A DNA stretch of 64,000 nt from Xanthostigma xanthostigma (lineage: Eukaryota > Arthropoda > Insecta > Raphidioptera > Raphidiidae). Location: the NCBI GenBank assembly GCA_963575645.1, contig OY754475.1:21738509-21802508 (forward strand). Direction: 5' to 3'. The notes below the pieces were generated by a model. The model was not told where the DNA came from. It worked only from the letters and a program-made list of their open reading frames with translations, and did no database searches. The stretch's first letter is position 1. Every line of letters starts with the position of its first letter. The position numbers and the translations under genes were made by a program. Positions 2,917-47,060 of this stretch are shown here, in pieces.

Positions 2917-2920
2917 CTTT

Positions 2921-3400
2921 CAAAAGATTTCCTGGGCAAAGGGAAAGTTGTTTATAACTTCTAAAGATTTCCTGGGCAAAGGGAAAGTTGTTTATAACTT
3001 CTAAAGATTTCCTGGGCAAAGGGAAAGTTGTTTATAACTTCTAAAGATTTCCTGGGCAAAGGGAAAGTTGTTTATAACTTCTAAAGATTTCCTGGGCAAA
3101 GGGAAAGTTGTTTATAACTTCTAAAGATTTCCTGGGCAAAGGGAAAGTTGTTTATAACTTCTAAAGATTTCCTGGGCAAAGGGAAAGTTGTTTATAACTT
3201 CTAAAGATTTCCTGGGCAAAGGGAAAGTTGTTTATAACTTCTAAAGATTTCCTGGGCAAAGGGAAAGTTGTTTATAACTTCTAAAGATTTCCTGGGCAAA
3301 GGGAAAGTTGTTTATAACTTCTAAAGATTTCCTGGGCAAAGGGAAAGTTGTTTATAACTTCTAAAGATTTTTTGGGCAAAGGGAAAGTTGTTTATTAGTT
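2921..3400. repeat. 40-bp minisatellite, 12 copies
   Basis: Twelve head-to-tail 40-bp units (CTAAAGATTTCCTGGGCAAA followed by GGGAAAGTTGTTTATAACTT) run without spacers. Ten of the units are identical. The first starts CAAAAG and the last has TTTGGG in place of CCTGGG and ends TTTATTAGTT. The array abuts the truncated satellite A monomer. Units are contiguous with no unique spacers, so it is not a CRISPR array. Confidence 0.97.
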
Positions 3401-27044: not shown

Positions 27045-30000
27045 AAACTCCTGGTGCTTTGCACTGCCACATTGTTGGCCGTCTTGTCCAGTAATCCCCC
27101 GCCGATCAACGCTCAACAAGCTCAACAATTCATATTTGTCAGAGGTAAGAAATATATTAAGATAACGCAAATCTGCTCAATATATTATGAAAAACTGTTT
27201 CACAAGAAAAATGAAATGTCCCGGGAAAATGGGAGGATGTATTAGGTATTTCAAGTAAGAAAGGTTCATACGAACATGTAGCCCTTAAATGATTAAAGGG
27301 ATACTAGTGTAACCTGTGCGAATTATTCGCACTAAATAAGTATAATAATGATCACTTTACGAAATTATTTTTTAGATATGATTGCAGGTATTCAATTTGT
27401 TTCTAATTTTGCACACTGCTTATAACGTTCTTCTTTTTGTTGTATTACAATATGAAGCTCAGATGACAGATCGAAGAAATATTTTACTAAAATTGTCATA
27501 TAGAGGCGCAAGTAGCAAAAGCGTTGAGCTAAGCCGTCAGATGGCATCATGCAGCATTGCTGTGACGTTGTTCAGCGTTGCTCGCTGTTTCAAAATTAAA
27601 GTCGTCAGATGGCAGTATGCAGTATTGTGTCTGTTGTATTACAATATGAAGATCACATGACAGATCGAAGTGTTGACGTTGTTTCAAAATTAAAGCCGTC
27701 AGACGGCAGACGTTGTTCAGCGTTGCTGTATTTTAATTAATTTACAAAAACAAAAGCAATAATAAATTTTTTAGTTGTCGATGTCAGTAGAGCAAGCAAA
27801 TTATCTGTAAAATGATATATAATTTATGTGGAAAAATTGTGAGGTTTTTTCTAAAAAGGGAAGCAAACATCTTTAACCTTAGCGTATTAATATATATGAT
27901 ATAAATTATTATTCGAAAATTTAAAAAAATCGAACAGTTGATATAAATTTTATAAATTTTTATTAGACGCGATTAAGCATTAAAAAACACGTTTTTTGTC
28001 CTGAAAATTGTATCACAAAACTTGGCATTTCTTTACAGCATGACATTTCAAACAACAAGAAATCTAATTTACTTTTAGACTTTTTTTTAAATGTGTATTA
28101 AAAATACTGCGAAATTTAGGTTGTTCAACATTTTTTTTTATTTGATTGAACGTTGCAGATGTAGCCGCCCCTCGTAAAATTCGAGCAATCGAATGGGACG
28201 ATGCAAGCGAACAGGATTTGTGTTCTCATCCGTTGCATTCCTTCCTCTGCGCTTCCGGCACCCGGAAGACGCAAGTGCCTTGGAGGAAAACCGGATTCGA
28301 GACTGACAACAGCTTGCGTTAGTATTTCTATAGATTAAAATTTTTGATTAACGTCTGAATAGAACTCTTCAAATAAATAAAAAAATAAATAAATAAATAA
28401 AAGAAGATTTCTATAGATTAATTGCACCACGCTAACAAAAAAGTGACCAAACGATAAAAATCTATATGACAATTGTGGACGTAATTATTGATTATATATC
28501 GGTATGACTGATGAGTTATGACATTATGTCACACGAGTCATAATAGCATTGCGTTCAAGATACATATGGCATTTTTTTTCCTATCCGTTCATAAATAATT
28601 TTAGACGAGGAAACTTTAGAACTTTAACTCTACGAGCAATCGATTAAAGGCTATCAAAAAAAATAAATTAATTAACGATTAATATCACCCGACAATTAAT
28701 TTGAAATAATGCTTTCGAAATTATTAATTGCTCTTTAGAGATATTATGTAATTAGATTTTTCCAATTTATTTAATATCCCTTGCAAGTTAATGTTTTATA
28801 TTAATAAAACTTAAGGAAGGTTTTGACGTGATAACGTCTTATAAATTGATGAAACACCGGCTGCACGCACGAAAAAGTGTCACGTTCCGCCTGAGCCTGA
28901 GCGTGCAAGCGAGAGCGCGATATAAGCGATAGAGAGGCACGATCGGCCCAAGCGTCGGCTTGTACGCATTTCAATGTTTCTTTATGACGTTATCACGTAA
29001 AACTATCGTCCGTAAACCGACTTTACAGACAACCAATTTTTTTTAACACAGTGTCAGCTTCGAACGTATTTGGTCAACGCTTGAAGCCACGAACTCAGTC
29101 TCGCGTGGAACCCGATCGGTCCGGTTCAGATGTCAGCTCTACAAACGACAACTTCAGCATTCTAGGACCTGCGGATTTGTCCGTAGCGAGCGCAAACGAA
29201 GACGGCTATTTATATCCTAAACCTTCGATACCGTTCGAAATACAGCGTCCTACTCCGACGACTCAAAGGCCGACACCCAGACCGACCACAGCTCGTTATG
29301 TGCCGCCTCCCACACGTCCGCCGCCTCCGCCGCCCGTAGATCAAGGCTACCAGTATCCTAAGCCATCTATTCCGTTTGAGGTCTTCAGAACAACAACACG
29401 ACCGCCTCCACCGCCGCCAAGACCAACTCCCAAACCGTATGTTCCTCCTCCTCCGCCACCGCCAAGACCAACTCCCAAACCGTATGTTCCTCCTCCTCCG
29501 CCACCGCCGAGACCAACTCCCAAACCGTATGTTCCTCCTCCTCCGCCACCGCCGAGACCAACTCCCAAACCGTATGTTCCTCCTCCTCCGCCGCCGCCAA
29601 GACCAACTCCCAAACCTTACGTACCTCCGCCAGTAGATCAAGGGTACGAGTATCCAAAACCATCTATACCGTTCGAAGTTGTGCGAACGACAGCAAAACC
29701 TACGACGCGTTACATTCCGCCAACCACTAGACCAACTACTCCAAGACCTACAACGCCTAGACCCACTACGCCTAGACCGACTACGCCCAGACCAACAACG
29801 GCACGTTATGTTCCGCCCCCAACAACACGCCCGCCGTATGTTCCACCTACAGAGGGATATCAATACCCAAAACCATCTGTTCCATTCCCTCCACCAACTA
29901 CTACAAGACGTCCGACACCGCGTCCTACAACACCTCCTCCGCCTCCAAAACCTTACTTGCCACCTGTACAATCCACTATACAACAAGTGTATAGAACAAC

Positions 30001-31120
30001 ATCAACAACTCCAAGACCTACAACGAGACCACCAACAACCACTAGAAGAACTACGCCGTACAGACCGCCGCCGCCACCACCGACTACAAGACCTCCACCG
30101 CCTCCAAAACCATACTTACCTCCAGTACAATCAACAATTCAACAAGTGTTTAGAACTACTACAACTCCAAGACCTACAACGAGACCTCCAACGACTACAA
30201 GACGTACAACTCCTTACAGACCTCCTCCTCCTCCAACGACAAGGCCTCCTCCCCCGCCTAAACCATATTTACCTCCAGTACAATCAACAATTCAACAGGT
30301 GTTCAGAACTACTACAACTCCAAGACCTACAACAAGACCTCCTACGACTACAAGACGTACAACTCCTTACAGACCTCCTCCTCCTCCAACGACAAGACCT
30401 CCTCCACCGCCTAAACCATACTTACCTCCAGTACAATCAACAATTCAACAAGTGTTTAGAACTACTACAACTCCAAGACCTACAACAAGACCTCCAACGA
30501 CTACAAGACGCACAACTCCTTACAGACCCCCTCCTCCGCCAACGACAAGGCCTCCTCCCCCGCCTAAACCATATTTACCTCCAGTACAATCAACAATTCA
30601 ACAGGTGTTCAGAACTACTACAACTCCAAGACCTACAACAAGACCTCCTACGACTACAAGACGTACAACTCCTTACAGACCCCCTCCTCCGCCAACGACA
30701 AGGCCTCCTCCACCGCCTAAACCATACTTACCTCCAGTACAATCAACAATTCAACAAGTGTTTAGAACTACTACAACTCCAAGACCTACAACAAGACCTC
30801 CAACGACTACAAGACGTACAACTCCTTACAGACCCCCTCCTCCGCCAACGACAAGGCCTCCTCCCCCGCCTAAACCATATTTGCCGCCAGTGCAATCAAC
30901 AATTCAACAAGTGTTCAGAACTACCACAACTCCAAGACCTACAACAAGACCGCCAACAACAACGAGAAGAACCACGCCCTACACAACACCTAGACCTACA
31001 ACGACGTATAGACCTCCCACTACACCTTACAGACCACCTTCTACCACTCCTAGAGCATACATCCCGCCGAAAGAAGAAGGCTATTCATACCCTAAACCAG
31101 CTATTCCGTTCAACTTCTAA
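27045..31120 (+). CDS. Secreted extensin-like Pro/Thr-rich cuticle or matrix protein (exons 2-4)
   Basis: Three joined exons are visible: 27045-27144 (donor GTAAGA), 28159-28317 (acceptor TTGCAG, donor GTTAGT) and 29052-31120 (acceptor ACACAG, stop TAA). Both junctions are phase 1 and keep one frame. With the proposed ATG exon at 16196 the product is 776 residues. The order is a signal peptide (KLLVLCTATLLAVLSS), an unrecognised ~110-residue region with few cysteines, then repeats. There are five Y.YPKP(S/A)(I/V)PF motifs, the first at about residue 139 and the last at the C terminus. Between them lie five 15-residue P7-RPTPKPYV units and seven ~51-residue units built on KPYLPPVQSTIQQV.RTT. 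This composition points to a structural protein of cuticle, chorion or peritrophic matrix, not an enzyme. I do not recognise a named orthologue. The repeat lengths are multiples of three, which also keeps the other frames open artificially. Confidence 0.88.
27439..27720. repeat. Diverged ~195-bp tandem duplication in intron 2
   Basis: TTGTATTACAATATGAAG followed by ATGACAGATCGAAG occurs at about 27440 and 27635. CGTCAGATGGCA and GTTGTTCAGCGTTGCT motifs recur between. The open frame 27382-27660 lies on this repeat and has no splice support. Confidence 0.65.
28821..29002. mobile_element. MITE in the last intron, 49 bp from the exon 4 acceptor
   Basis: The left end TTTTGACGTGATAACGTCTT and the reverse complement of the right end TTTTACGTGATAACGTCATA form inverted repeats. 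The interior is unusually GC-rich (GCACGCACG, GAGCGTGCAAGCGAGAGCGC). The acceptor of the large repeat exon lies just downstream at 29051, so the element may contribute the branch-point region's immediate context. Confidence 0.65.
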
Positions 31121-35679: not shown

Positions 35680-38600
35680 ATGTACGACGAAGTGAAATAC
35701 GGACGCGAACGGAAACCATCGAGGTATCGATGGTCGTATCAATTCGGCTTGTATAAATCGCCCGATGCCGATTCGCTCAAGGACGACAATGTATTAACCA
35801 ATAGGAAATATGCTAGGTACTTTGCAGTCATTGCGCTGGCAGGATTTGCTATTATTCTTGTAAGTAATTAAAATATTATTAATTAATTGGAAGCAGCCAA
35901 GGTATTGCTTTATTTGCACAAAATGTCACAGATTACTGTTAAAAAGCTCTTAAAACATTCGATTGTCATATTTAGAACTGAACCGACTGGGAAAGGATCG
36001 GACAGTTCTCGGATTCACATCAAGGAACTAGTAAAAATATGATAGTATGAATTAGTTCAAATAGCCCCAGCTGTTGGTGGCCTAAAAATGCAATAGAAAG
36101 CAATAGAATCGAAGAGTTGGGGTGACGGTGGTGATATTAAAACAATACTGTCCGTGATAATCGTAAAACAACTTTTTGTGTACAGTCACGAAGCAACATT
36201 TTGGGATAACTCTAAAGAAGTTAGACTCACGCGTTTTTTTTTATTTGCTTTCAGATATGCCTTCTTATTTATGATACATCAGAATACAACAATACGTACG
36301 ACTCTCAAAATATAACAAACGAAACCAGCAATGAAAATACGACCGCGACATTTACAACAATGACTACAGAAATCCCAACGGAATCGTCTTTCGAAACAAA
36401 GACCTCGTTGCCAAGCACAACAGAAACCGGTTACGACATTATCGACAGCGTAGACGATACAAACAATTCACTAATTGAAAACGCTTCACTTTTGTTGATA
36501 AATGATACACGCACTCCAGAAAAGTGGGTTCAAAAAATACCGAGTCCTTATCTCACACCGCCTGGAATTGTGAAGTCAATAAGCGACGATCGACTGAAGT
36601 ATTCTCGAAAACCGCTCGTCGTAGACGAAACAACGAAACACGAGGACCTGACGCCTCCTTTGATTCGGAAGAACAAGGCTTTGGTAATCAACGGCTTGCG
36701 AGGTTTGAATATCAAAGCCAGTTTGATGAATACTGATCCAAAACCGAAAGAAGACAATGATAGCGAAATTGTTACAACCACAAGTCAAACAGATTTACTC
36801 GACGGTAAGAATTATTTCCAAATCGAAAATTCCGGCGAGAGTACAAATAGACGTAGCAACAGTGCATCTATAATGAGTGCGACAATTCCAAAACCAAAAC
36901 CGTTTCATTTCGAATTGCAAGGTTTGAAGCCGCAAGCGTTTACGACAAGTCAGAATACACCGAAACGTCAAGGACCGTATCCACAGTTGCAAGGCTATCG
37001 TTATCCAACGTCAGCTAAAAATATTCAGGACATTATAGATTTCTTGACAAACAACAAGGAGAAGAATGATAACGAAGGAAGTGAAGATCAGACTCCGACG
37101 AAACTAAAATTTACTGGTAAATACAAAACCGGTGGAAGTGTGGATGTTGATCAAGAGCAGGTACACAACAGGAAAACCAGGAAGAACAAGGATAATGGCT
37201 TGGTAAATTACAATACAGATCCGTTTTTCTATTATAAGCCTTCGAATCCTTACGAAGTCAATCTATTGGCTGGTCAAAAATATCGTTTCGCTCCAAATAT
37301 GATACACAATCACTTCACAATACCGGACGAAGAAGATTACGCAAACGGAGATGTTGGAGACAAACGAAAAAGGAAACCGCTAAGTGTCATGCTGGATATT
37401 TATCCGATGTCTCATGAAGAGGATGAAACTGTTGCTATCAAACAAAACTCTGAATTGAAGAAGAATCCAACCAAAAGACCTAACGTGATGATGCCGCATC
37501 AATATATGGGTCACAATTATGCGCCCGGGCATGATTACAATAATTTGAACGCTCTTTATCATTACAGCAACACTTTGAACAATAATAATCAACAATATGC
37601 TCAAGAAATGAGCAACCATTACAAACAACAGCAACAATACAGTGCGTCCAATAATTATTATGACAATTATCCACAGTATAGACCGTATGCTCAACAAAGT
37701 ATGAATTATATCCAGAGAAAAAAGCCTTCTCTAGAAAGAGGAAGTACTAAAGAAGGACCTCAAAAGATGGTTGTTCATTTGAACTTGTATCCGCGGAAGA
37801 AACCGAACCAGCGAGCTTATGATACTAACGCATTGTATTTTGATACCGCTGGCCGATATGACATACGTAGTGGAAAAGATTTGGAGTTGGGCGAATCGAA
37901 GAATTACAATTCGAGTTTGATAGTTCCGAATAATACCGACACTAAACGAGAAATGTTCATTGAAGATTTAATAAATGAACAAAACGTTTGCGAAAAAGTG
38001 TTGAATCTGTTGAAAAATAAAGATGATTCCAAAGCTGTACAGAATTCTGTTAGTTTTAAAATAACTGTACCAGATCCAACGAAAATTGTTACGAACAAAA
38101 AGTCTGAGGATACTATGGATGTGTCTGAAACGTCTGATCATATTGTGTTGCCAGGTGGTGTTGAATATAAAATAAAACCAACACCGAATTCCAATATGGA
38201 AGATTTCAAAAAGTTTCAAGCTAATATTAAAGAATATATTGATAATTTGAATAAAACGATACATGAACAGCACAAGGAAATGAAAGAATCTGCTAAACGT
38301 GTACCAAACTTGCATCATTTCAACACCGAGAAAAATAAACATTCTCAGGAAACTGTTTTTCCTACACTGCCGCCTGAATACCGGCCTGATTTAAATTTGT
38401 TTCAAAACGAATTCAGCGATTTCAATAATAATTTGAATCCTGATGTTCATCATAACATCGATAGTTCAGTAGTGACTGAAAATCATCATCCGAATTACCA
38501 AATCGTAAATGGCGTTCGAGGTTATATACCAAGTCCTAATGAATACAAGCCAGGAGATGATTCTTTTAATAACGAATTTAATCCAAAAACAGCATCAATT

Positions 38601-39545
38601 AATCCTTTTAAACCATCGACTTCATATGATAGTCCAGTACCAAAGCCAAATTACCCGAACATACACAATCACCGTTTGAATCCAAACGAACCAGTAAGAC
38701 CTCCTTATCCAGGCTATCCTAATTACCCTCACGCTGAAACTCCACAAAAGCCGTCATATTATCCGAACCACCCTAGTTATCCGAATCATCCGAGTGTTAC
38801 GAGTCACACAAGCATTCCGAATTATCCACCAGGAGAAACACCTAAAAGACCACATCCTGACGCTCCGACGAAACCGATTGTATTTCCTCCATCCGATCAC
38901 AATCTTTACAATAATCCTCATCAAAATAACAACGGCTTTGTACAGTACGAAAACGAACGATTAAGACCCACTGCAAACATATTCCCCCAAACCGGAAATT
39001 CGTTCACTGCATTTCCGTACGATAAATTGATATTGAAAAAAGAACCGGACGAAGATACGGTTAATAAGCCTGAAGTGGAGGGAGGTTTTCAGCCAATGAC
39101 TTCACTGAATATCGGGGAAGTACCGTACGATCCACCAGATGAATATCAAGAGAGCGGCGACATTAAAACTCCAGGTGTCAATAAGAGAGAGGGAATTGTT
39201 GAAACCAGTAGCCAAGAAGGAGAAGGTGAATTATACAGTACCGAATCTGCCAGCACCGAAGAAAAATTTGATAGCAGTGAAATAAACGTCAGAAGGAGTG
39301 ATGATAATTCAGATGATCTAATATTTACGGATACTTCTTTAAGTAGCGAAGAAATAACTACCGAAGCGGTTGATACGACTCAACTGTCAGATGAAATCAC
39401 GTCGATGGAAAATAAAGACATTGTAGAAACTAACAAAGAAGAAATGAATACTACTATAAGTGATGATAGTGATTCGAATTTGAAAAATCATAAGTTAGTT
39501 TTTTCTGATATTTCAGGTAATAAAACCGGTGAAGCGAAGGAGTGA
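35680..39545 (+). CDS. Large single-pass membrane protein with disordered ectodomain
   Basis: Two exons, 35680-35859 and 36255-39545, join in phase 0 (donor CTT|GTAAGT, acceptor TTTCAG) to give 1156 residues. The start ATG has a good context (GGAACCATG). Residues 1-46 are basic and Tyr-rich. Residues 47-66 (YFAVIALAGFAIIL plus ICLLIY) form one transmembrane helix that exists only when the exons are joined, preceded by RKYAR, so the N terminus is probably cytoplasmic. Right after it lie four N-glycosylation sequons (NNT, NIT, NET, NTT), supporting an extracellular C-terminal part. That part is hydrophilic and low-complexity, with Gln/Asn/Tyr-rich, Pro/Tyr-rich (YPNHPSYPNHP near residues 850-880) and acidic Ser/Thr-rich stretches. 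Two similar short motifs, LSVMLDIYPM and KMVVHLNLYPRKKP, stand out. No enzymatic domain or named family was recognised. A matrix- or cuticle-associated role is inference. Confidence 0.87.
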
Positions 39546-39619: not shown

Positions 39620-40335
39620 GTAACTTTATGCTGGTGTATTTTCGCAAGGTCAGCTGACTTATTCTGCTGATAAGAGAAGAAATATTTGATTAGGAAGAAA
39701 AATACATGAAATTATTTTTCTCCGTGTGATTAAAACCGGGTTTTCATGACTGATTTTGTACTGCGGCATAAAAATCTTCATTGTTTTTACTATGATCATA
39801 CGATTCTTTATCATCTGTATGTTTAAAACACGAGGGCTACTGAACGAATTTGAATGACATTTTTTACTATTCGTTAGTTTTTCTCTTGGAGAAGGTTTAG
39901 GGCTGTAATAACAGTTCACCTTGGCAAATCGTATTAAATCTGCTGTTAACAGGACTTTTTTCCTTAGAATTAGCCAAGGAATCACACCCTTATATTCCAA
40001 CACGTGTTTTGGAACACTTTGTATATCCAAAGCCGGACGGGGCTGCTAGATATAAAGGTGCTGTTATTTGTAAAATTGTGAGATTTTAGATAGACAATCG
40101 ATTTTAAATAATTGTTATGTTTTGTTACGAATTTTGTACTTTTTTTGTACGAAAATATAAGTTATTTTGTTATTTTAATACTTTTGTTACATAGTAAAAA
40201 ATAAATCAATATGTAGATTTATAATGTACCTTCTATATTTTAACGTGGATTAATAAAATTTTAATTATAAAATGTTTTTTTTTTTGTTTAATCCCGTAAA
40301 TAAAAGACATGATACGAGTGTGATGTCTTATAACA
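39620..40335. other. Intergenic DNA or long 3' UTR
   Basis: AT-rich, possibly the extended 3' UTR of the upstream gene. A 123-codon minus-strand frame at 39659-40030 has no recognisable domain. Confidence 0.4.
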
Positions 40336-40336
40336 T

Positions 40337-40724
40337 GTTGGATTTTCCAAAATTAAGAAAACAATGTACTTGACGTTTAATTACACTTATGCTTAATTTT
40401 AAAATCAGATATATGCAAAATTTCGTTATTATAATGACAAAATATTACAAAATTGATATTTAGCTACCTCTATTAATGTTGTAGCTAATCAATTTGTGCA
40501 GGAAACCTCTTGAATCGAACATTAACATCACCAAAATGAGGCACAAACGTAATATTGCACTTTAGAATGGCTATTACGGGTAGCAATGTTTTAAACGCCT
40601 GTGGTGCAGGCAATTGCATTACATGCATGTATGGAGGATTGCCTGCTTGCAGGCGTTTAAAGATAATTTTTTTGAAAACTACAACTAGTGGTTTTATGAT
40701 GTTATAGCGGTTGGATAATTTTTT
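40337..40724 (+). repeat. Solitary fragment of satellite B
   Basis: From GTTGGATTTTCCAAAATTAA to ATAGCGGTTGGAT this aligns with ~380 bp of the 912-bp monomer of the 47-61 kb array, in the same orientation, at perhaps 90% identity by eye. It includes the conserved hairpin (40592-40659). Both ends fall at a GGTTGGAT-like motif, and ACATGT lies just outside each end (40333-40338 and 40725-40730), a possible 6-bp target duplication. Confidence 0.85.
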
Positions 40725-41000
40725 ACATGTCTCATAGCATAACAATAAAACGTAGTCTTTTGTTGATACATCGTTTTATGATATATATAGATAGTAGATT
40801 ATAGACGCTAATATGGTTTTAAAAGTACATAATCCATGTTTATAGTATTTTAATTAAACGGTTTCTCCTAACAGCCAAAAAACTCTATTAACTGTTAAAA
40901 GATCTCAGTTCAATTAAAATATGTCAAACAAAAAATTCGTTTATTTTACGAGAACAGTGTCACGTTGGGAAAATATTTACTTCGACAAAAAATTGATAAA

Positions 41001-42551
41001 ATGAGTAATTTATCAATAACTAGAAAGAATCAAAATAAATTATGTAGATTGTGTATGAACAGTGAGATAACATCAGTTAATATATATTCGTTTTTATCGG
41101 AATTTAAATCAGTACTGGCAAATGTCATTATGGAGTGCACTCCGGTTCAGGTATTTGCAAACATTTTATACCATGTAACAATTAATTTCTAGAATATCGA
41201 AATGTTGACACTTTAAACTAACCGCACTTACTTTAGCTCTATTATTTATAAGTAACTTTTATTCAATATTTTTCCATTAAAATTAATGATGGAATAGTAA
41301 TTCTAACTACATATTTGTAGAAGTTGTGATCCAATAGTCAAATGATGTATAAGGAAGATATAAAAGTCGCCACTGATGTTCAATTATACCTACTTTTAAT
41401 ACTAATTCTTAAATCTAAACCTTATTTTTGATAACCGCTTTTCACTCAGATAGCCAAATGCGACGGTCTTCCAGATATAATCTGTACGTCCTGTTACTCA
41501 GAAGTCAGAAAAATACACCAGTTCCAAGCGCAAGCAGCCAAGTCTGACAAAACATTACGACTTCGTCTACAGCAGCTATACAGACAGAGTGAACCAGGTT
41601 GTTCGTCTGAGACCTTTGAAAATTCGGACATTAAAACCGAACCTTTGGAAAATACAGACCTAAATATATTGTGTCGACTTTGTATGGCCACCGATGGAAC
41701 AATGGTTAACATATTCATTGAGGAGAAACTTGCAGAGGATATCATGAAATATACACCTATTTCAGTAAGTATTTCATACAGAATTTGAAATTAGAATGGA
41801 ATCTAAAGATGAAGCATCGATTCGTAATAAACTAAACGACGTACTTGTATAATTCTAGATATCGGAATACGACGACTTGCCGAATGTCATCTGCACAGCT
41901 TGTCACACAGAACTGGACAAAGTTCATCGGTTTCAAACAAAAGCAGTTGAATCAGAACGTGCGCTTCGCGGTTGTTTTTTACAACGCTCAGTTGTCATTC
42001 AAAATGGATCCGAGGTATCGGGAGATCATAAAAAATTTGACTTTGTTGACGTTAGAATAAACGCACAAGACGGCGGAGTCGACATTTTCGATGCGCTAGA
42101 AGTTAGAATGGAAGAACCTTCAAATGACCTTGTAGAAGGTCATAATTATGATGAAAATAACTGGAATGCCAAAGGAAACGTGCGTCCCAAAATGAAAGAA
42201 AAAAAACACATATGTGCCGTTTGTAATAAAGGCTTCGGTGAGACGAGCAGCCTAAAAAAACACATGTTAGTGCATACGGGAGTAAAACTGTGTCGATGTG
42301 ACCTTTGCTCTAAATGTTTCACACTCCCGCATCATTTAAACAGACACAAATTAACGCATACTGGAGAGAAACCGCACGAATGCGATGTCTGTAATAAAGG
42401 TTTTATTCAGTTAACTAATTTGAATAGGCATAAACTTACACATACTGGAGAGAAACCGCATAGATGTGATATTTGCGACAAAGGTTTCGCCCGGCCGGAT
42501 AGAGTGATGAAACATAAGCGAGCTGTACATTTTAAAATAAAAAAGAAGTAG
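41001..42551 (+). CDS. Double-ZAD C2H2 zinc-finger protein, paralogue 1 (4 fingers)
   Basis: Three exons, 41001-41150, 41450-41764 and 41859-42551, all joined in phase 0, encode 385 residues. ATG 41001 is the first ATG in the frame; the frame upstream of it opens only with TTG. Two ZAD domains are present, each with a CRLC pair (exon 1 and late exon 2) and a second Cys pair (CTSC in exon 2, CTAC in exon 3). Each ZAD is cut by an intron at the same place, after TPVQ and TPIS. An IKTEPLE sumoylation-type motif lies between them. Residues ~272-382 hold four C2H2 fingers with TGEKP-type linkers; the last has HKRAVH spacing. ZAD proteins are insect nuclear DNA-binding factors that dimerise through the ZAD. 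Paired ZADs are uncommon. The gene lies head-to-tail with a paralogue at 43283 and ends 1.2 kb after a satellite B fragment. The donor after exon 1 (GTATTT) is weak. Confidence 0.88.
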
Positions 42552-42762
42552 ATACATAATATATGGACTTATATAATAATATTAAACTTGAGGCGGCGTG
42601 TATAAAGATAAAAATATTTATTGAAGAGTTCTGATCAGACGTTAATCAGAGATTTTAAAGATAAAAATATTCAGGTCTATTTTAACGATTGTTTACCAAG
42701 TGCTTAACAAAATACGCACTCTGTTTTTTATTCTGCTAAACAAATGACTACGTAAATCTTGT

Positions 42763-42936
42763 GCATACTGACGAGAAACCGTATCGGTGTGACGTTTGCA
42801 ACGCTAGCTTCAAGTGAACTCATTTAGAAAGACATCTGTTAATTTATTCGAGTATTAAACGGCTTGAGTGTGATATTTACAACATACGTTTTGTTCGAAG
42901 ACAGACTTATAAAGCATAAACGAATTCATTCTAAAA
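42763..42936 (+). pseudogene. Decayed C2H2 fingers downstream of paralogue 1
   Basis: After the stop of the 41001 gene the sequence still reads VHTDEKPYRCDVCNASFK, then a TGA, then THLERHLLIY (second His replaced by Tyr). CDIYNIRF follows (second Cys replaced by Tyr), and finally, in a shifted frame, LIKHKRIHS. These are remains of two to three zinc fingers inactivated by stops, a frameshift and loss of metal ligands. They show that an ancestor had a longer finger array, or that another gene copy lay here. Confidence 0.8.
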
Positions 42937-43282
42937 ATACTATGTACCTACTTACATATTATAGCCGTGTGAAAAAAATATCAATCAAGCAAAACTTGCG
43001 CGATAGAAAGACTTTGCCCTTATGAATAGGCAATAGCACGGCTATAGAATATCCCGGATGCGTGTTTGATTTCCTCGTTGCGTAAGAAAATAGGTGTCCG
43101 AGTGAGGTTAGATTCTGAATGTTTACTTCGATGCAAATGATATTTAATTGAAATGTATTTTACAAAATTATAATAAACTGTTTTCCTTAACAAAATACTG
43201 GTGTAGATTTAAAGTTCGGAAGTAGATTGCATGTTACATCATACATTTATAATGCCTATCCTAGGTTTAAAACATTTTTAAA

Positions 43283-45511
43283 ATGTCGAATGAAGTCAAT
43301 AATTCAGAAAAAGATAATTCGTCTTTAATTAATAAATATATAAACAAATTGTGTAGATTATGCATGGATAGAGATATAAGCACAATTAATTTGTTTACAT
43401 TTTTGCCAGGAATTAACACAGAACTAGTAAATATTGCTATGGAGTGTGCTCCCGTTCACGTAAGTATTTTAAAAAAGTATGAACTTGTGAAAAAAAGTTT
43501 GCTTTAATTGTCTAAGCAAGCTATGTATACAGAGATATGTTTTTATACTTTTTTACAGATATCAAAACATGATGGTTTGCCTAACGTCATCTGTCGGTCG
43601 TGTTTCTGTGAACTGAAAGAAATCCACCGATTTCAAGAAAAAGCTGCCGAATCAGACAAAACACTTCGTCATCATGTGCAGATGTTACATGCTGCTAACA
43701 AACAAAACAAAGCAGGATCTTCTGTGGTTGATGCAGCCAATAATTTATTTGAACTAAGTAATTCCATCGTTAAAGCTGAGCCCTTGGAGACAGTTCAAAT
43801 GTTTAGTGCAGAAGAATTAAATAAATTCTGCAGATTATGCATGACAACTGTAGTGACAATGGTTAATATATTTAAAAAGAAACTTCTGGCAGAAAATATC
43901 ATGAAATGCACACCGGTTTTGGTAAGCTTTATTTTCTGTGATTTTCATTTTTAAAATCAATACGGTATGGTAATGCCATTTATGTTCATGTAGATATCAA
44001 AACATGACAGCCTTCCGGATATTATCTGTACATCGTGTGACACAAAAGTCAAAAAGATCCACCAATTCCAAACACAGGCGGTTGAATCTGAACTCTCCCT
44101 TCGACGCTATTTAATGCAGTTGGAGCCCCGTGACTATCAAATCGGATCAAAATCTACTACAAACTTCATAGCTCTCGGAGTAAAAACTGAAAATAACAAA
44201 GACGTTGATTCGCCTAAATTAGTTATCGAAGAAGAGGTATCGAGCATAGATAACGTTGATCCGTTAGCAGTTAAAGTTAAAGAAGAACCCTTCGATGACA
44301 TTGGCGAAGGTCAAAGTTGTAATGGCGGAATCAACCGGAAATACATTAAAACGGAAATGAGTTCAGACAGCGAAGATGAAAAACCTTCAAAACAGATCAA
44401 ACCGGAGATGAGTTCGGATAGAGACAACTCTAGATCGATTACCGATGGTAAGAAGAAGACACAAGATGATCTTGACGCTGTTCAGACGTCTAATGTGATT
44501 AAGGTTGAGTCATTTGATGAAGATCAACTTGAGGTGACTACGCCGAGTGGCTTGAATGAAAACACTAGCAATACTGTTAAAAAACACCAGTGTGACGTTT
44601 GTAATAAGTTCTTTAACCGTTTAAGCAATTTAAAAATTCATAAACTGTCGCATACTGGTGAGAAACCATATCAGTGCGACGATTGCTGTAAATGTTTTAA
44701 TCAGTTAAGTGCAATGAAAAGACACAAAGTCAGACATACGGGTGAGAAGGCGTATCGGTGTGACGTTTGCAAGAAGTGTTTCACCGAAGCGGGAAATTTA
44801 AAAAAGCACGCCTTACTACATACCGGTGAGAAACCGTATCAGTGCGAAGTTTGCAGCAAGGGTTTTACGCAGTTGAGTAGTTTGAAAAGACACAAACCTG
44901 TCCATACCGGTGTTATGTTGGATCAAAGTATTATTCGTGACGATAAATTTGAAAAACCTAGTTCGTTCAAAAAACACGACTCTGCGAATTCAGGCGAGAA
45001 AATACATCGGTGTGACGTTTGTAATAAGTGCTTCACTGAAAACGGAAATTTAAAAATCCATATGTATATACATTCAGGTGAAAAACCGTTTCGGTGTGAC
45101 GTTTGCAATAAGTGCTTCACACAGTCAAGCAGTTTAAGTAAACATAAACTTACCCATACTGGTGAGAAACCTTACAAATGTGACGTTTGCAATAAGTGTT
45201 TCGCCGAGTCGGGCAACTTGAAAAAACATGTCCGGGTGCATACAGGCGTGAAACCGTATCGGTGTGACGTTTGTAACAAGTGTTTCAATCATCTAAGCAA
45301 CTTAAAAATCCACAAACTGACCCATACCGGTGTGAAACTTAACCGATGTGACATTTGCAATGACAGTTTTATTCAAACGAGTGCTTTGAAGAAACACAAA
45401 TTAATACATACCGGTGAGAAACCACATTTGTGCGACATTTGCAATAAGTGTTTCACACAGTCGAGCAATTTAACTAAGCATAAACTTACTCATACAGGTA
45501 AGAAACCATAG
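43283..45511 (+). CDS. Double-ZAD C2H2 zinc-finger protein, paralogue 2 (10 fingers)
   Basis: Exons 43283-43459, 43559-43921 and 43994-45511, all phase 0, give 685 residues. The architecture is as in the gene at 41001: ZAD 1 (CRLC in exon 1, CRSC in exon 2) and ZAD 2 (CRLC in exon 2, CTSC in exon 3), both split by introns at the same point (after APVH and TPVL). A ~170-residue acidic linker follows with several sumoylation-type motifs (VKAEPLE, IKTEMSSDSEDE, IKPEMSSD, IKVESFDED), some followed by acidic/Ser residues. From about residue 378 there are ten intact C2H2 fingers joined by TGEKP-like linkers. An eleventh position between fingers 4 and 5 has lost both cysteines (IIRDDKFEKPSSFKKH). 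The protein ends right after the last linker. It is probably a nuclear sequence-specific DNA-binding factor; the target is unknown. Confidence 0.92.
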
Positions 45512-45855
45512 CGAGGTATAATACGCGCCACAAATCTAAAAGGCTCGAAAGTAAGATGCGAATGCGGGCTTGCGCTTGTACTGTCTGTTGAAAAACTACA
45601 AACTCGCGACTCAACAAAACTAAAATAGCAATAACAACTTGACAATAGCGTACTCGACTGTAATTTAAAGCAGGAAAGCGACAAGTGACAAAGGCAACGA
45701 GCGATCACGGCCAATCTACTACTTTACCAAAGTTTTTGTTTAATTGTTACAGTTCTTGGGCCGGTACTGCATTAATCGAGGGCTTTGATTAGACTGTGAT
45801 TATTCGTTTCTTTTTCGATTCATCTTGCTAATTATGTTTATTTTGTTTTATGTTA
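45512..45855. other. 3' flank of the zinc-finger gene
   Basis: No clear AATAAA and no second gene. The minus-strand frame at 45490-45714 overlaps the gene end and has no support. Confidence 0.35.
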
Positions 45856-46339
45856 CAGTAGAGACGCGTTAATCCGAACCTTCATAATCCGGATTTTTTG
45901 GTAATTCGGACAGTCGTTTGATAGTATTATGTACATTGTAGTCCGGATTTTTCCAGTTTCAGTAATCCGGATCATGATACTTAGTTACTGAGTAGCTGTA
46001 CCGGCACTATTTACGTCAACACTATTGGCCGGCGGTGTGTTACAAACAGTTACATACATATTTGTTGCCAGAGAAGTGAGAGAAGTTAGGTGGTTTTAGT
46101 ATGTATGTAGTCGTTGTCAAACTCAGATAGAAATACATAGAGAACGCACTATGGCGCCGCGTGTAAAAAGCGAAATTCTTGACAAATTAAAAAAGGGAGC
46201 CTCAAATAAACAGTTAGCCGCAAAATATGAGCATTTTAGTTTGTTTTCTTGATAATTAAAATTACATCCAGTAATCCGGACATTTTGATAATCCGGATCA
46301 GCTGTGTTTTAATTAATCCGGATTATCGCGTCTCTACTG
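45856..46339 (+). mobile_element. pogo/Tigger-like MITE, 484 bp
   Basis: Terminal inverted repeats CAGTAGAGACGCG(T/A)TAATCCG sit inside TA dinucleotides (45854-45855 and 46340-46341), the target duplication of Tc1/mariner-pogo elements. AATCCGGA motifs are repeated subterminally (about six, in both orientations) and are likely transposase-binding sites. The element keeps the 5' end of a transposase gene but no catalytic part. Confidence 0.9.
46151..46252 (+). pseudogene. Truncated transposase N terminus (CENP-B-type helix-turn-helix)
   Basis: A 33-residue frame starting ATG at 46151 reads KSEILDKLKKGASNKQLAAKYE, matching the first helices of the pogo/Tigger (CENP-B N-terminal) DNA-binding domain, and then stops. 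It is an internal-deletion relic of an autonomous pogo element. Confidence 0.75.
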
Positions 46340-46341
46340 TA

Positions 46342-47060
46342 TCGAGAAACTCTAAAGTCTAGTGGATCTTTGATCAGAAATAATTTAAGCAGGATCTTTC
46401 TTCCTGATTTAATAAGCAACTGTCATCAAAAAGTTTTATTTTATTGCTTAAATACAGATCTTTTTGCAGAATCACAACTTCGGTCTTCTTTGACGTGAAT
46501 GGAGCTCTCATTGGACAGTATACAAACTGCTGAGTGACCAGACTTTGTATTTACTGGAGAAAGTTGTAGATTATAGACGCTCGACACCAGACTTCATAAG
46601 CGGAGGAAGCGTCGAAACGTTTCTTTCTAATCGCATCGTTCGTTACTAGGACTGCCACTTCTGCATGACTTCAAACTCAATATGGGAATACGGGGCCGGA
46701 TTAAGCCACATAGAGACCCTTAGACGATGCTAGTCCTGGGGACCCTCTTCTTCTAGGTGGGTGAGTGACAAGCCGGGACGCTTATCACTGTACTATCGAG
46801 GACATATTCGCTACAGACGTAAATACTGCTTTCCGCGGCATACAATAGTACAATAAAGCTAATAAAAACGTGATAAAATTAATTATTACAAGTTAAATTG
46901 CTTAAATAAAGAATTACATATTTGTCACTTCAGTTGTCTACATTTATTTGAATGTTATTCCTTTGTAGTTTTGTCGATTGTCTCAAAGCATTTCTCTGCA
47001 CAACAAAGTCGCACTCTTTTTTAAATATGAACCACTGTAAAGGATAAAAAAAAACAAGGC
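46342..47060. other. Intergenic DNA before the satellite B array
   Basis: No exon. A GC-richer repeat-like patch lies at 46690-46800 (GGGGCCGGATTAAGCC). A GTAGATTATAGACGCT motif at 46565-46580 also occurs at 15540 and 40794, with close variants at three other places. Confidence 0.4.

Follow-up and report, generated by a model that had tools for sequence, protein, structure and literature searches.

Among insect zinc-finger proteins, those of the ZAD-C2H2 type are described as the most numerous group (PMC9531945). In known ZADs four cysteines hold one zinc, and the ZAD of Grauzone is dimeric in the crystal (PMC5509000, PMC5081699, PMC9531945). The roles reported for this domain comprise nuclear localisation, chromatin binding and distant contacts (PMC5509000, PMC5081699, PMC9531945), and some ZAD-C2H2 proteins are described as using paired ZADs to keep distant chromatin sites in contact (PMC5509000). 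For Kipferl, loss of the ZAD is reported to remove the ChIP-seq signal, and co-localisation with Rhino to be rescued by a foreign dimerisation domain or by the ZAD of another protein (PMC9531945); for this protein, therefore, the role of the ZAD lies largely in joining two chains. At the level of gene organisation, 37 of the 91 ZAD-ZNF genes of D. melanogaster are placed in 13 clusters, many of them matching the exon structure of their neighbours (PMC7655104), and intron positions common to 26 genes are reported for the Cucoid clade (PMC9810180).

Here, we describe two adjoining genes, A and B, on the plus strand of a window of 64,000 nucleotides (the whole stretch of DNA that was analysed). 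Both encode two ZADs followed by C2H2 fingers. This order, proposed in the initial annotation, was recovered once the exons had been joined and translated, with hmmscan placing two zf-AD stretches and then zf-C2H2 matches on each protein.

Gene structure and the four ZADs

Gene A has three exons, all of them open, which together give a single frame of 385 aa. Exon 1 (41001-41150) encodes the N-terminus and the first half of ZAD1 with the first CxxC, and its open frame ends at TPVQ, in phase 0, before a GT donor after 41150. Exon 2 (41450-41764; 315 nt), flanked by AG before 41450 and GT after 41764, is stop-free and symmetric (0-0), and combines the second half of ZAD1, a linker bearing IKTEP and the first half of ZAD2. 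Exon 3 (41859-42551) completes ZAD2 with its second half and continues through a linker and four C2H2 fingers to the stop. Gene B is built in the same way and, from an ATG at 43283, encodes 685 aa in a single open frame. Its exon 1 (43283-43459) holds the N-terminus and the first half of ZAD1, ending at APVH before the GT after 43459; exon 2 (43559-43921; 363 nt, symmetric 0-0) holds the second half of ZAD1, a linker bearing VKAEP and the first half of ZAD2; and exon 3 (43994-45511) holds the second half of ZAD2, a linker with five psi-K-x-E sites, ten C2H2 fingers and the stop. Fingers were counted by pattern in both proteins.

The four introns (299 and 94 nt in gene A, 99 and 72 nt in gene B) are predicted from sequence alone. 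All are GT-AG and phase 0, and they cut all four ZADs at the same site, after TPVQ, TPIS, APVH and TPVL, exactly where they had originally been proposed. The anatomy is that of a domain repeat built on a symmetric exon, with one intron site and one phase per repeat and a middle exon that is a multiple of three. Among 2000 first-order Markov sequences each, built on positions 40001-47000, frames of exon 2 length were stop-free by chance in 5 (A, 315 nt) and 3 (B, 363 nt) cases, and frames of exon 1 length in 72 (A) and 40 (B). At the protein level, exon 2 of gene B is 56% identical to exon 2 of gene A, and the view of the two genes as tandem paralogues, already taken in the initial annotation, is one that we share. 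A tblastn search of the window with both proteins (E up to 1) gave no match outside 41001-45526; in a search of viral contigs for relatives, 11 stretches fitted a pattern and none was confirmed.

Scanned singly, all four ZADs pass the curated cut-off of the zf-AD profile (Pfam PF07776; 28 bits), with 49.0 (A1), 59.4 (A2), 48.2 (B1) and 49.3 bits (B2). These scores speak against a chance origin of the domains. The initial annotation had suggested a search of this kind and had named loss of a Cys pair as an outcome that would count against the two-ZAD reading; each of the four ZADs has both CxxC pairs. The hallmarks of ZAD-C2H2 transcription factors, a C-terminal C2H2 array and one or more ZADs with two CxxC pairs, are therefore found in both proteins, which have two ZADs in place of the single N-terminal copy that is usual, if not strictly defining, for such factors. 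Between ZADs, NG86 estimates of dN range from 0.25 to 0.44 in all six pairs; dS lies at 1.5-2.3 in four pairs, values that are rough, and is undefined in two, which we took as saturated. Wherever both are defined, dN is well under dS, and the ZADs are shown, at the level of sequence comparison, to be under constraint. Matches to solved structures, namely Grauzone (1pzw) and 6fp5, 7pok and 7po9, which we take to be ZAD structures, are weak (E 0.004-0.06, none below 0.001).

The profile scan also returned two matches on the finger region of protein B, BolA (40.4 bits, cut-off 25.7) and Complex1_49kDa (19.3 bits, under the cut-off of 24), both of which we attribute to chance similarity with the repetitive finger sequence. 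Separately, protein B contains six psi-K-x-E sites of SUMO type, where shuffled sequences contain 1.27 (sd 1.10); they span residues 130-352, or 43769-44509 in the window. Protein A contains one (0.68 in shuffles, sd 0.81), at residues 111-114 (41630-41641). In each protein one such site lies between the ZADs, IKTE in A and VKAE in B.

Origin and age of the doubling

The initial annotation explained the growth in ZAD number by in-frame duplication of an exon composed of the second half of one ZAD and the first half of the next. This explanation does not hold as the founding event, since such an exon arises only once two ZADs are present; its duplication could raise the number only from two to three. 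Each gene has one exon of this kind, with no repeat of it within the gene. Judging from the exon anatomy, we infer that the middle exon is the product of the doubling and not its unit, a whole ZAD with its internal intron having been copied first, with breakpoints in the flanking linkers. The ancestral gene would have had one ZAD, arranged as a first half, an intron, and an exon with the second half, linker and fingers. A head-to-tail copy, made within this gene, of a segment that starts shortly ahead of the first half, includes the intron and ends in the linker past the second half would give three exons and create a middle exon consisting of the second half of ZAD1, a linker and the first half of ZAD2. 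Later duplication of this two-ZAD gene would have produced A and B as tandem paralogues, both inheriting the doubled ZAD.

How the four ZADs group bears on the order of these events. In the alignment, five residues are common to ZAD1 of A and B and absent from both ZAD2s. Nucleotide sites in the first halves group the ZADs by position (A1B1|A2B2) in 13 cases, by gene (A1A2|B1B2) in 2 and by the crossed split (A1B2|A2B1) in 3, and the codon bootstrap for grouping by position is 0.995 (parsimony, 2000 replicates). At the amino-acid level only two first-half sites are informative, both grouping by position, and by identity A1 is closer to B2 (18/32) than to B1 (17/37); the signal in the first halves is therefore mainly one of nucleotides and of a common length difference. 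The second halves settle on no split: nucleotide sites number 9 by position, 4 by gene and 10 crossed, amino-acid sites 2, 0 and 5, and bootstrap values are 0.42, 0.02 and 0.56, respectively. Since grouping by gene has the weakest support of the three splits in either half, and given the five ZAD1-specific residues and the grouping of the first halves, the doubling of the ZAD probably predates the duplication that gave A and B. The difference between first and second halves is no more than suggestive (Fisher p 0.078), and for this reason we make no firm claim of recombination between second halves. An exchange of second halves between ZADs, with the halves meeting at the intron, is conceivable, but the contrast could equally result from parallel changes in a domain this small.

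Pairing, splicing and the state of gene A

In the arrangement that we favour, the C-terminal fingers would bind DNA and the N-termini would join two chains through ZAD1:ZAD1 and ZAD2:ZAD2 contacts, giving a doubly locked and more avid homodimer. We prefer pairing between chains because stable homodimers alone are reported for the ZADs of proteins treated in PMC5509000, and because ZAD1 and ZAD2 are identical at just 33 of 72 aligned positions in protein A (16/32 + 17/40 for the two halves) and likewise in protein B (12/32 + 21/40). The history outlined above together with a homodimer doubly held in this way is an account to which we give moderate confidence, with the splicing, DNA binding, dimerisation, pairing pattern and duplication event as its predicted elements. 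It is also possible that the ZAD ends pair with different chains, which would lead to longer assemblies. Were ZAD1 and ZAD2 instead to pair inside one chain, the protein would be a monomeric pseudo-dimer that no longer bridges distant sites. Known ZADs are described as dimerising antiparallel (PMC5509000, PMC9531945), and the compared ZAD stretches are separated by 33 residues in A and 49 in B, which looks long enough for such pairing; nevertheless, the reported restriction to homodimers and an identity of 38-53% per half within the same chain make this arrangement unlikely.

Splicing offers a different reading of the middle exon. Skipping of exon 2 would leave one fused domain, with its first half from ZAD1 and its second from ZAD2; these hybrids score 53.2 (A) and 44.4 bits (B) against the zf-AD cut-off of 28, and the shorter products would thus be likely to retain a ZAD. 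If exon 2 served as a cassette, each gene would yield two-ZAD and hybrid single-ZAD proteins, and splicing would set the number of dimerisation domains. The hybrid scores are in keeping with this, as is the length of the exon in both genes, a multiple of three between phase-0 introns. However, whenever a domain that contains a phase-0 intron is duplicated, a symmetric exon results, with no need for selection. By visual inspection, exon 2 has ordinary splice sites; the donor of intron 1 in gene A (GTATTTGC) appears weakest. We therefore think it improbable that exon 2 is a cassette. More speculative, and quite unlikely, is a combined reading. Here the doubled ZAD would be a conserved dimerisation module that splicing can adjust, present either as a two-ZAD chain (an avid dimer or chain-forming) or as a one-ZAD hybrid with a different choice of partner, and second halves, but not first halves, would have been exchanged between positions.

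A last alternative concerns gene A itself, whose two-ZAD layout would be a relic if the gene were decaying and only gene B functional. It has four fingers where B has ten, and decayed C2H2 finger remnants lie on the plus strand 3' of its stop (42758-42913; tblastn with protein A, 48% identity over 48 aa, E 1.2e-7). These remnants are interrupted by stops, suggesting that the finger array of gene A was formerly longer. Against decay, every exon of gene A is open, its eight ZAD cysteines are all retained, and its ZADs score about the same as or above those of gene B despite high synonymous divergence, and we hold this alternative to be very unlikely. The reading that we retain is that of two genes, each with a doubled ZAD, whose products would dimerise between chains.

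The surroundings of the pair include a satellite array of units of about 913 bp, which starts 1.5 kb past gene B and runs from 47063 to about 61142. It comprises 14 full copies (reference unit included) and two partial ones, 96.6-100% identical to the reference unit and in one orientation. On the opposite side of the pair, shortly before gene A, a detached piece of the same unit (387 bp, 92.8%) occupies 40337-40722. The evolution of ZAD-ZNF genes has been linked to heterochromatin and its repeats (PMC7655104); the satellite next to this zinc-finger pair may be a coincidence. Two further open frames, one of 1106 aa upstream of the pair (36225-39545) and one of 710 aa (28988-31120) that is rich in proline and threonine and carries a 153-bp tandem repeat in 6.7 copies, were without a Pfam match (E up to 0.01). 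Another tandem repeat, of a 40-bp unit in 11.9 copies with 99% matches, lies at 2919-3395.

Comparison with described ZAD-C2H2 genes

The insect ZAD-C2H2 factors Grauzone, Pita, Zw5 and Kipferl have an N-terminal C4 ZAD, a variable linker and a C-terminal C2H2 array, and the same layout is found in A and B. Some two-ZAD architectures are listed in public domain databases. Among the literature matches listed and consulted, no two-ZAD protein is described, which is weak evidence of absence given that subscription journals fall mostly outside the scope covered. Where 'two ZAD' wording occurs among these matches, it refers to two genes, two molecules or the two domains of a dimer, and the one match for 'duplicated ZAD' counted for PMC7655104 is absent from the main text of that paper.

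With two ZADs, a chain could dimerise more tightly or connect three or more partners, and the symmetric exon in its gene would be a natural switch between one- and two-ZAD states. Moreover, the presence of two ZADs in one protein makes the self-preference of this domain directly testable there.

The tandem ZAD-ZNF clusters of Drosophila, including the Cucoid clade, resemble A and B in that neighbours have a common exon-intron structure, a pattern attributed to segmental or tandem duplication (PMC7655104, PMC9810180). They differ in that the accounts of these clusters that we drew on mention extra N-terminal domains of other kinds and no doubled ZAD (PMC7655104, PMC9810180). The described examples of ZAD-C2H2 proteins, as presented in the sources cited, have one N-terminal ZAD (PMC8618245, PMC9822104, PMC9531945), whereas A and B have two per chain. 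Thus, the components of both proteins are familiar from the ZAD-C2H2 family, and it is their doubled ZAD arrangement that is unusual.
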